NCBI GenBank assembly: GCA_902607945.1
Contig: CACLMD010000001.1
Location: forward strand, 24,272-88,271
From: an uncultured Pelagibacteraceae bacterium
GTDB taxonomy: Bacteria > Pseudomonadota > Alphaproteobacteria > Pelagibacterales > Pelagibacteraceae
Length of the DNA: 64,000 nucleotides
Direction of reading: 5' to 3'
The notes beneath the pieces were generated by a model that worked only from the letters and a program-made list of their open reading frames with translations, was not told the origin of the DNA and did not search any database. The position numbers and the translations under genes were made by a program. Shown here piece after piece: positions 1 to 3,443 of the stretch (the first letter of the stretch is position 1; every line of letters begins with the position of its first letter).

Positions 1-1071
1 CAAAATAATAATAAAGATAGAAGTCAACCTAAATATAAAGGAGCTGGTGACATTTTTGAAATTTTTTCAAAAAGCGTTGTTTATATAGGTAATAGAAAGA
101 ATAATAGAATAAATGGAGTAGGTTCTGGATTTATAATAAGTCAACAAGGAAAATTAAAAATTATAACTAATTGGCATGTCATAGATGGAGCTGATAGCTT
201 AAGTGTTTGGATTGAACCAGACAAAGAAGTTGATGAAAATTTTTTAATTACAAAAATTGATTCATATTCTGCCAAATTAATTAAGGTAAATAAAACAAAA
301 GATTTAGCGATGCTTGAGGTTGAAGAATTACCGATAAAAATAGAACCAGTTACTTATGGAAAATTTTCTAAAAAATTAATTGGAAAAAATGCCTATGCTA
401 TTGGTCACCCTAAGGGACATTTATGGACTTTTACACAAGGAATGATAAGTCAAGTAAGACCAAATTATAAGTGGCCTTATAAAGGATCAAGACACCAGGC
501 AGATGTGATTCAAATACAAGTCCCAATTAACCCTGGTAATTCTGGTGGACCTCTATTTAATGAAAATAAAGAATTAATAGGTGTAAATACTTTTACAAGT
601 GATGGAGAAAATTTGAATTTTGCTATAGCTATTAGTGATGTAGTCAAATTTATTAATGAGAAACCAAAACCATTAAAAAAGAAAAAAAGTAAATATATTC
701 AAAAAAAAGAAAAAGGTAATACTTGGATAAAGAAAAAGAAAAAGAAAAACTCTGAAAAAGGATCGATTGATTTATCTAATGCAAAAGAAGTTGATTTAAA
801 TAAAAATGGAATAATAGATACATGGTTAATAGACGATAATAATAACGGAATTTATGAAAAAGCTTATCATGATCAAAATGAAGATGGAATAATTGAAGTT
901 GTTGGAATAGACAAAAATGAAGATGATAATTTTGAAATAATCTTAATTGACACTAATAATAATGGTAATCCTGATGAGGCAGAAATTGATGATAATGAAG
1001 ATGGTAAAACTGATGTAATAGCCTATGACTTCAATGAAGATGGAGAATGGGATAAGTTTGAAAACGTCTAA
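1..1071 (+). CDS. Trypsin-like (S1C/DegP-like) serine protease with C-terminal acidic DxNxDG repeats; 5' end truncated by window edge
   Basis: Frame 1 is open from base 1; the listed ORF starts at an internal Met (310). Triad motifs: ITNWHV (His), DLAMLEV (Asp), NPGNSGGPL (Ser). Lys-rich linker, then 7 x 13-aa repeats. Confidence 0.85.
   Translation, partial: QNNNKDRSQPKYKGAGDIFEIFSKSVVYIGNRKNNRINGVGSGFIISQQGKLKIITNWHVIDGADSLSVWIEPDKEVDENFLITKIDSYSAKLIKVNKTKDLAMLEVEELPIKIEPVTYGKFSKKLIGKNAYAIGHPKGHLWTFTQGMISQVRPNYKWPYKGSRHQADVIQIQVPINPGNSGGPLFNENKELIGVNTFTSDGENLNFAIAISDVVKFINEKPKPLKKKKSKYIQKKEKGNTWIKKKKKKNSEKGSIDLSNAKEVDLNKNGIIDTWLIDDNNNGIYEKAYHDQNEDGIIEVVGIDKNEDDNFEIILIDTNNNGNPDEAEIDDNEDGKTDVIAYDFNEDGEWDKFENV
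790..1062 (+). repeat. Seven tandem 13-residue (39-bp) EF-hand-loop-like repeats within the protease CDS
   Basis: VDLNKNGIIDTWL/IDDNNNGIYEKAY/HDQNEDGIIEVVG/IDKNEDDNFEIIL/IDTNNNGNPDEAE/IDDNEDGKTDVIA/YDFNEDGEWDKFE, no indels. Confidence 0.9.
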
Positions 1072-1072
1072 C

Positions 1073-1537
1073 TTATTTTTGATCTACAGTAATTTTAATT
1101 TTCATAATTTTATCTTCTAAATTTTTGATTGCTTCCATTATTTCTTTTTTTTCTAATTTTGAAATATCTATTCCTCGATCACTTTTTTGATCCTCAGCTA
1201 ACTTTACAACTTCTATCAATTTTCCATGTAAGATTGTTGATTTAACAAGTAATTCATCAATATCATTATTTTTATGAGAACTTGAATTTTCAAATTCATT
1301 AATCACTATATATTCATGCGCATCATATAGTGGTGGTGCTTTACCTTTTTTAATACAAGCTAAATCAAGTTTAATAGAGTCGTTATGATCAATTTGTTGT
1401 TGTAGATCGGGATTACTACATTTTCTTAAATATGAAGAGCCTTTACCAATGGCCTCTTGAATTTCTTCTTCATTTAATATCTTTAAAACCTGCATAATCC
1501 CATTCTCAATAGATGCTGTTTTTCTGATTTTAGCCAT
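1073..1537 (-). CDS. Hypothetical protein, possibly a phage CII-like/HTH regulator
   Basis: 154-aa ORF; N-terminal layout ...ALGKGSSYLRK.NPD...I....SIKLDLACIKKG loosely resembles CII-type regulators. Confidence 0.5.
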   Translation of the reverse strand: MAKIRKTASIENGIMQVLKILNEEEIQEAIGKGSSYLRKCSNPDLQQQIDHNDSIKLDLACIKKGKAPPLYDAHEYIVINEFENSSSHKNNDIDELLVKSTILHGKLIEVVKLAEDQKSDRGIDISKLEKKEIMEAIKNLEDKIMKIKITVDQK

Positions 1538-1588: not shown

Positions 1589-3079
1589 GTGAAAATTAAA
1601 AATATAATTAGATTTATTTTGTTTTTATTAGTGTTGAATAAGGCACTCTTTTTTTCATCAATCTCATTTTCAGATGAGTACATCTGTGAAAATAAAACAA
1701 TAGATTATCTAATCAATAACGACCCTAGGAATACAGAGTATAATGAGACAAGAAATGATGCTGGAATTCATTTTGATTTTGATTGGAATGGAAAAGATTT
1801 AATAATTATTAAAAGAAATAAAAAAAATTATCCAATAGTGAGATATTCGTTATTTGATAGTAAAAATTTTGAAACTTCAAAAACAGCTATAATAAAAATA
1901 AATAATCAAGATTTATCTAAACTATCGGATAACGAGTTAACAAAACTTACTTATTTAAGTGGTGAAAATAATTATGAAATTGATAATGGTAAATCTATTT
2001 CAATTTTATCAAGACCTTACAAATTTAATAATTTTAAATTAGAAAACTTTGACATTTTAAGTATTCAAAATATCGATACAAATATTGGTATATTAGAAAT
2101 GTCATTTAATTCTAAATTTACAAATGTTAGAAAAGACTTGCTTAAAACTTTAAAAGGAACAGATCTCTTTAGCGATCAATTAATAAATATATGTCGTGAA
2201 GCTAGAGATAAAAATAATTGGCCTTTAGAAACAGTTAAATTTGAAGAATTTAGATATGATGCAGATGTTAGAGAGGGATTAAAAAATAAAGAAATTCTAG
2301 TAAATCCTGTTTTTCAAATTACTATTGATGATGATTTGTTAAGAACTCTAAGAACAGAAAAAGGAGTTGGTTTTTTTAGGCAGTCGTTCGATTTTAGGAA
2401 CTTTCCTTTTGATACTCAAAAACTTATCATAAGAATTAAAACTGGAGTTAAAAATTTTACAAATCGTAATTTTGAAAATGATAAAGACATTGGTACTATC
2501 ACTTTTATTTCCCCAAAGTCTGGTGTATTTGTTAATCTAGAAAATTTTATAAAACCTGAGGTAAATAAACTTAAGGCTTGGAAAATTCCTAATAATGGTA
2601 TTTCTGTAAAAAGTAAAGTTTTATACGGTAATGAATGGAATATTTATAATCAAGAAATTGAGGATGTTGAAGAAAATGTTTTAGATATTGAAATTATAAT
2701 ACAGAGAAATTTTGCACATTATTTATGGAAGATAATGTTACCAGTTTTTTTAATCCTTTGTGTTGCTTGGTATGTTCTTTGGATACCTACAGAAAAATAT
2801 GAAGTAAGATTAAATACTTCTATAATAGCTTTGTTGGCTTTAATTGCTTACAATTTTGTTTTTCAAGATGATATTCCAAAACTGCAGTATTTAACTGATA
2901 TGGATAGATTTATATTATTATCATATATATTTTGTTGTATTCCTGTTTTTTTAAGTATCGCCTTTAGCAAATTCATATCTAAAAACCAAATTAAAGTGAT
3001 GAAAATAAATCGAATAATAAAAATTTGGGGGGGGATTATTTATCTTTTATTAACTGCACAAATATTTTATAGTTATTGA
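1589..3079 (+). CDS. Pentameric ligand-gated ion channel (Cys-loop receptor-like) homologue with N-terminal extension
   Basis: GTG start, signal-like N-terminus, FDFRNFPFDTQKLIIRI motif, then four TM segments with M1 Pro (KIMLPVFLILCVAWYVLW), M2 (EVRLNTSIIALLALIAYNFVF), M3 and M4. Confidence 0.8.
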   Translation: MKIKNIIRFILFLLVLNKALFFSSISFSDEYICENKTIDYLINNDPRNTEYNETRNDAGIHFDFDWNGKDLIIIKRNKKNYPIVRYSLFDSKNFETSKTAIIKINNQDLSKLSDNELTKLTYLSGENNYEIDNGKSISILSRPYKFNNFKLENFDILSIQNIDTNIGILEMSFNSKFTNVRKDLLKTLKGTDLFSDQLINICREARDKNNWPLETVKFEEFRYDADVREGLKNKEILVNPVFQITIDDDLLRTLRTEKGVGFFRQSFDFRNFPFDTQKLIIRIKTGVKNFTNRNFENDKDIGTITFISPKSGVFVNLENFIKPEVNKLKAWKIPNNGISVKSKVLYGNEWNIYNQEIEDVEENVLDIEIIIQRNFAHYLWKIMLPVFLILCVAWYVLWIPTEKYEVRLNTSIIALLALIAYNFVFQDDIPKLQYLTDMDRFILLSYIFCCIPVFLSIAFSKFISKNQIKVMKINRIIKIWGGIIYLLLTAQIFYSY

Positions 3080-3080
3080 T

Positions 3081-3443
3081 ATGAACTTTGGACAATCAAT
3101 ATCTTACTGTTTTTCAAACTATTTTAATTTTAATGGTCGTGGATCAAGATCAGAATATTGGTGGTTTGTTTTGTTTTGTTTGATTTTAGAATTTGGAGGA
3201 AGTGTTTGGGATGCTTCAATGGGTGATACAAGCGGCAACGGATTTATGTACTGGATTGCTGTAGCTGCAACTTTTTTTCCAAGTATAGCTGCTGCTGCTA
3301 GAAGACTACATGATGTTAATAAATCAGGATGGTGGCAACTAATTGCATTTACTATTATAGGATTGATACCATTAATCATTTGGCTAGCTAGTGTTGGTGA
3401 AAAAAAGAAAAATAAATACGGTCAACCAATTAAACTAAGGTAG
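3081..3443 (+). CDS. DUF805 family membrane protein
   Basis: YFNFNGRGSRSEYWWFVLF...AAARRLHDVNKSGWWQL is the DUF805 signature. Confidence 0.9.
   Translation: MNFGQSISYCFSNYFNFNGRGSRSEYWWFVLFCLILEFGGSVWDASMGDTSGNGFMYWIAVAATFFPSIAAAARRLHDVNKSGWWQLIAFTIIGLIPLIIWLASVGEKKKNKYGQPIKLR

Follow-up and report, generated by a model that had tools for sequence, protein, structure and literature searches.

The roles that prokaryotic pentameric ligand-gated ion channels (pLGICs) play in their native cells are poorly known. ELIC, GLIC, and sTeLIC have the same core as the SAR11 channel described here, with a ligand-binding domain, the Pro-loop FPFD, the M1 proline, the M2–M3 loop, and four transmembrane helices. 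Unlike this channel, however, they hold no N-terminal extension, and their alignment with it covers only the channel core. DeCLIC is the one pLGIC known to have a partly characterised N-terminal domain (PMC12664993), and its combination of a pLGIC core with a periplasmic N-terminal domain is also found in this channel. The extension of DeCLIC, a Ca2+-sensitive channel, consists of two jelly-roll lobes (PMC12664993), whereas the one described here is a single PDZ-like domain of ~90 residues. Other prokaryotic pLGICs carry a fused PBP-I, Cache, or MCP-N domain (PMC549065), so that a sensor-type domain precedes the channel, as here, although those domains bind small molecules while this one is PDZ-like. 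The presence of pLGICs in Pelagibacter was recorded by Jaiteh 2016 (PMC4795631), in an analysis that discarded terminal regions. The PDZ-pLGIC is a domain architecture that goes unmentioned in the prokaryotic pLGIC surveys PMC549065 and PMC4795631, in neither of which PDZ domains appear. No description of it was found in a full-text literature search with most subscription journals and preprints outside its scope.

On the protease side, the PDZ domain of HtrA/DegS proteins reads peptides and controls the activity coupled to it. The PDZ domains of HtrA/DegS and of Ctp (S41) are of the same bacterial type as the channel extension, to which Ctp and Deg are the nearest folds. In those proteins, however, PDZ domain and protease form one polypeptide, whereas here the PDZ-like domain is on the channel and the neighbouring trypsin-like protease has none. 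Bacterial conflict systems bring caspase-like and/or trypsin-like proteases into one gene system (PMC7159879; PMC12799240), and at this locus both lie side by side. The abstracts of those two papers mention no pLGIC partner, while here the secreted-looking proteases adjoin a pLGIC.

The locus lies in a stretch of 64,000 nucleotides (the window), where a SAR11 Pro-loop pLGIC with a PDZ-like domain sits in a conserved module that also holds a trypsin-like protease, a CII-like protein, and, in most cases, a caspase-like protease. The channel is tentatively read here as a protease-linked sensor of a peptide or protein, an interpretation preferred to its rivals while being held with considerable doubt.

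Channel gene and predicted structure

The channel gene (Table 1) is an intact, uninterrupted ORF with the start codon GTG, which is also read in the orthologues L092, L021, L093, L094, and L095, and it is present in a single copy in its draft SAR11-type genome. Orthologues share 68–89% identity, and the closest named relative, at 89%, belongs to a Pelagibacteraceae MAG. A channel fragment of 77% identity was also found on a contig labelled Chloroflexi (L022, PBWZ01000008.1), which is probably a mis-binned SAR11 contig.

Table 1. Features of the channel locus; positions refer to the window unless prefixed with L092.
Feature	Position	Strand	Details
Caspase-like gene	L092:4567-6063		Just left of the window; overlaps the trypsin-like gene
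Trypsin-like protease	1..1071	+	5' part lies left of the window; complete gene L092:6060-7343, 427 aa
Phage_CP76/CII-like family protein	1073..1537	-	154 aa; divergent from the channel gene, 51-bp gap; adjoins the majority of PDZ-channels
pLGIC homologue: N-terminal PDZ-like domain, ligand-binding domain, 4 TM helices	1589..3079	+	496 aa
Signal peptide, predicted	1589..1675	+	Residues 1-29; helix 2-21, low confidence 23-29; model and sequence reading
PDZ-like domain, divergent	1745..2017	+	Residues ~53-143; G59 almost invariant across the family
Extracellular ligand-binding domain	2039..2704	+	Residues ~151-372; model, Foldseek
Pro-loop motif FPFDTQ, without flanking cysteines	2402..2419	+	Residues 272-277; FPFD = 272-275
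TM helices M1-M4	2711..3067	+	Model helices 375-398, 404-428, 437-462, 467-493; P385 in M1
M2 pore helix (E405 almost invariant)	2798..2872	+	Homologue alignment and model
DUF805 membrane protein	3081..3443	+	Begins 1 bp past the channel

Among the solved pLGICs, sequence searches with the channel returned ELIC (1.3e-13), DeCLIC (~2e-13), and GLIC (~1e-11), and among the NCBIfam models, LGIC_1 (2.4e-18) and TIGR00860 (3.1e-9). The scores fall below the curated cut-offs of Pfam Neur_chan_memb (19.2 vs 28.1 bits) and LGIC_1 (66.6 vs 500 bits), which are annotation thresholds that do not define structural features. On sequence comparison, the homology of the channel to solved pLGICs is beyond doubt, chance being excluded. 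Its Pro-loop follows the Y/FPxD pattern as FPFD, and no cysteines occur in its sequence near residues 265–282, so that the protein is a Pro-loop receptor rather than an animal-type Cys-loop receptor. Both the M1 proline and M2 are present, and the M2–M3 loop reads DIPKLQYLTDMDRF. Over 36 homologues, the residues P273, D275, P385, P430, L432, T436, and D439 are invariant, and the Pro-loop, the M1 proline, and the M2–M3 loop are invariant or almost so. The nearly invariant E405 lies at the inner end of M2, presumably in the position of the cation-selecting glutamate of the family, which would point to cation selectivity. Loop alignments with ELIC were too unreliable for placing the ligand-box residues. 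The first-pass annotation had proposed a pLGIC homologue of 496 residues with FPFDTQ, the M1 proline, M2, and the M2–M3 loop as hallmarks, and it is borne out by the ORF reading and by the matches to solved channels and NCBIfam models, down to the exact position of FPFDTQ.

An AlphaFold2 model of the full-length protein, built on a 36-sequence alignment (pLDDT 82, pTM 0.76), predicts in this order a signal helix, an ordered domain (~53–143), the ligand-binding domain, and the four transmembrane helices, and the signal peptide would be cleaved at about residue 29. The best PDB matches of this model in Foldseek are DeCLIC, at the top, sTeLIC, GluCl, and GABA-A receptors, with E-values of ~1e-17 to 1e-18. 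A different fold, or disorder in the N-terminal segment, had been named beforehand as counting against the assignment; the model has the beta-rich extracellular domain and the four transmembrane helices of a pLGIC, and the segment is predicted to be ordered (pLDDT ~90). Two cysteines, C33 (~1685) just past the signal peptide and C202 (~2192) within the ligand-binding domain, are conserved in most of the channel family and possibly form a disulphide bridge between the N-terminal extension and the ligand-binding domain.

The PDZ-like N-terminal domain

The extra N-terminal residues noticed in the first-pass annotation resolve into a predicted signal peptide to about residue 29 and a compact domain, both ahead of the ligand-binding domain. 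Modelled alone (residues 46–150), this extension reaches a pLDDT of 89, and all 50 of the 50 Foldseek matches listed for it are PDZ proteins, with Ctp and Deg proteases nearest at a probability close to 1. Among these 50, the top 35 mostly have a probability >0.9, although the matches are weak by E-value (best 0.015, none <0.001). A profile of 30 N-termini of the family, compared with the PDB, retrieved mainly PDZ chains, with the tandem PDZ domains of site-2 protease aq_1964 (7e-7) ranked first and Deg/DO, GRIP1, harmonin, and PSD-95 behind them. Pfam PDZ (PF00595) is matched by 13 of the 30 N-termini (best 1.4e-6), and in several paralogues these matches fall at the same position as the channel extension.

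The copy in the window is harder to place. Its N-terminal segment matches no family in Pfam, PDZ families included, and a direct hhalign comparison of the window-clade domain with bacterial PDZ profiles gave a non-significant probability of 0.3–2%. The connection runs through the paralogues, whose domains are reached from the window-clade domain with 96.8% and lead on to alphaproteobacterial PDZ domains with 92.3%, while the ligand-binding domain, as a negative control, gave 0.1–0.3%. The 'GD' usually found ahead of a beta strand in PDZ domains is replaced in the window clade, whose copy is the least PDZ-like in sequence. Since the window copy alone matches no PDZ family, the domain would be a divergent one, and it is assigned because of its paralogues and its predicted fold; a claim made from the window clade alone was abandoned, given the negative direct Pfam and hhalign comparisons. 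The PDZ-like segment of the first-pass annotation thus holds as far as fold, family profiles, and paralogues are concerned, but not by its own sequence, which matches no PDZ model. Taken together, the extension is read as a divergent PDZ-like domain, and in the window clade its groove may have lost binding.

The high structural confidence of this domain despite the degenerate signature of the window clade would also fit a part that only helps the pentamer to assemble or to stay stable, or anchors it in the periplasm, without signal content, in which case the widely conserved C33 and C202 might fix the extension on the ligand-binding domain as a rigid scaffold. Such a role is considered highly improbable, with a PDZ fold that is kept despite deep divergence and a domain that travels with peptidases.

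Genes beside the channel in the window

The trypsin-like protein matches Trypsin_2 (6.5e-26) and keeps the triad motifs TNWHV, KDLAML, and GNSGG, and a profile search detected no PDZ domain in it. Its C-terminus (~760–1071 in the window) holds Asp/Asn-rich repeats that, by eye, look Ca2+-binding. The caspase-like protein matches Peptidase_C14 (2.2e-15), with the motifs YYSGHG and VDSC. Simple catalytic motif patterns are absent from some of the orthologous caspase-like proteins, so that not all of these proteins in the clade can be assumed to be active. Both proteins start with a signal-peptide-like stretch, which suggests that they may share the periplasm with the extracellular domains of the channel. 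In the CII-like family, 14 of the 18 members match Phage_CP76 (best 3.6e-7), which makes DNA binding plausible. Both protease genes lie on the channel strand, with the opposite-strand CII-like gene between them and the channel, so that co-transcription of proteases and channel is unlikely in the window. The DUF805 gene adjoins the channel in some orthologues only (L092, L021, L094), and it was discarded as a member of the module.

Genes of this kind might also form a cell-suicide or anti-phage module, in which activation of the proteases would open the channel and collapse the membrane potential, with the CII-like protein as a phage-type regulator or trigger. Pairs of caspase and trypsin are described in the conflict systems cited above, the caspase-like protein matches the PADLOC caspase model (1.3e-11), and the trypsin-like protein matches PADLOC protease models; the likeness of the CII-like family to a phage regulator family and the patchy presence of the channel, found in 18 of 201 relatives, lean the same way. 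However, both proteases look secreted by their N-termini, whereas phage defence is usually cytoplasmic, and neither an NTPase nor a nucleic-acid sensor nor an effector-associated domain was noticed next to them. This explanation ranks third and is judged improbable. For the channel itself, membership in a defence system was rejected, with no PADLOC model matched, as was a phage origin, since tblastn against phage records gave no match.

Seven divergent proteins of ~200 residues (c0), secreted-looking and encoded in a tandem array, lie immediately to the left of the window (L092:17-3337; G000:C1:16766-21318); they bear the motif IEGMSIGDSLL and match no Pfam family clearly. Arrays of this kind flank many channel loci of the window clade and are also present in the genomes G070 and G087; as they occur there without a detected channel, they are claimed neither as members of the module nor as protease substrates.

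Conservation across loci and the possible nature of the signal

Gene neighbourhoods were compared at 61 loci, including 12 complete loci of the window clade, which is monophyletic (100/100). The trypsin-like gene lies beside the channel in all 12, and in 10 it is preceded or overlapped by the caspase-like gene, the contig ending first in L095 and L102. The CII-like gene, missing in L103, stands on the opposite strand between protease and channel in the other 11, with a divergent spacing of 38–86 bp to the channel. The outer flanks vary among these genomes (c0 arrays, the MATE/gatB side, and others), which argues that the set of protease, CII-like, and channel genes is kept as a unit.

In sister branches, the gene order is CII-like, PrsW protease (3e-35), and channel, with junctions that are often short or overlapping, so that two unrelated protease solutions, trypsin plus caspase and PrsW, are found in one channel family. 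A literature search on PrsW with pLGICs returned nothing relevant. Some of these operons also include a gene for a flavin amine oxidase and one for a second channel, which is short. The amine oxidase adjoins a short pLGIC (~400 aa) in L109, L110, L124, L125, L126, L127, and L135, most of which hold PrsW and a PDZ-pLGIC as well; an enzyme that degrades amines here stands beside an ELIC-like channel.

A protease gene lies within three ORFs of the channel in 31 of the 34 PDZ-channel loci, the exceptions being L106, L119, and L121. Within the same distance, a CII-like or protease gene is found at 32/34 of these loci vs 5/18 of those where no PDZ domain was scored (Fisher 1e-6), and across 201 genomes the CII-like gene co-occurs with a pLGIC (3e-7) and the caspase-like gene with the window-clade channel (7e-7 in SAR11-type genomes, 1.6e-5 over all 201), all of which are Fisher values that overstate independence, as the loci share ancestry. 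Three of the latter five loci (L107, L150, L151) have N-termini that look PDZ-like by eye and fall below the cut-off. The 13 stand-alone SAR11 channels of 413–430 residues (L131, L136, L137, L139–L148) form a deep, separate clade, mostly with YPFD, and none has the PDZ domain or the protease and CII-like neighbours. Another locus, L118 (G079), shows caspase and CII-like genes without a channel, and it was dismissed as a counter-example because it is a chimeric-looking contig of 4 kb, with the caspase split at both ends.

Next after the protease-linked sensor ranks an ordinary pLGIC gated by a small molecule, as ELIC is by amines and GLIC by protons, in which the PDZ-like domain would be only a structural or tuning cap, as the jelly-roll domain of DeCLIC seems to be, and the gene neighbours would be there through common regulation or because a genomic island happened to retain them. 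The channel is closest in sequence and fold to ELIC, sTeLIC, and DeCLIC; ELIC is activated by primary amines (PMC3119659), and the N-terminal domain of DeCLIC modulates gating (PMC12664993). The degenerate PDZ copy of the window clade and the amine-oxidase genes in the related operons would also agree with such a channel. However, no amine oxidase is found at the window locus, and the pairing of the PDZ domain with protease and CII-like genes across a diverse clade, both missing from the stand-alone SAR11 channels, is left unexplained. Gating of this kind is therefore regarded as rather unlikely, while remaining the strongest competitor.

Given the PDZ-like domain and the protease neighbourhood, peptides or proteins may act on these channels besides, or instead of, small molecules. 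The conserved proteases next to the channel, which the first-pass annotation does not discuss, make a peptide or protein as plausible a signal as a small molecule, and the proximity of their genes to the channel gene is not the same as interaction. As a protease-linked sensor, the channel would be a cation-conducting pentamer of the inner membrane whose ligand-binding and PDZ domains project into the periplasm. There, the PDZ domains would bind an exposed or protease-made peptide, either a C-terminus or a loop, or would alternatively dock the neighbouring trypsin-like protease, and their engagement would bias the ligand-binding domain and thereby gate the pore, in a split arrangement of the HtrA/DegS logic. 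The CII-like protein is probably a transcriptional regulator of the channel gene divergent from it. Against the sensor reading, the site of action of PrsW is the membrane and not the periplasm. It is a conjecture, and an unlikely one, that the secreted caspase/trypsin-like or membrane PrsW proteases act on proteins of the envelope, the products being read by the PDZ domain so that the cation pore opens, as an electrical response of SAR11 cells to attack or to damage of the envelope.

A PDZ branch tied to proteases offers a concrete lead on the native ligands of pLGICs, which would be peptides or proteins rather than transmitters, and it places PDZ-channels in some of the most abundant bacteria of the ocean. 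The PDZ-pLGIC is also a natural system for the steering of pLGIC gating by an accessory domain.

At two loci (L114:5595-6831 and L116:5265-6442), a CII-like gene without a channel stands next to the gene of a protein that looks, by eye, like a RecB/Cas4-type nuclease. In another alphaproteobacterial family, the CII-like gene directly adjoins a pLGIC (L150 and L151, from G736 and G813) with a PDZ-looking N-terminus (LEVGDRILAVDQKPV) that scores only 5–6 bits against the profile. As L150 and L151 lie outside SAR11, the channel, the PDZ-looking domain, and the CII-like gene appear to be linked there too.
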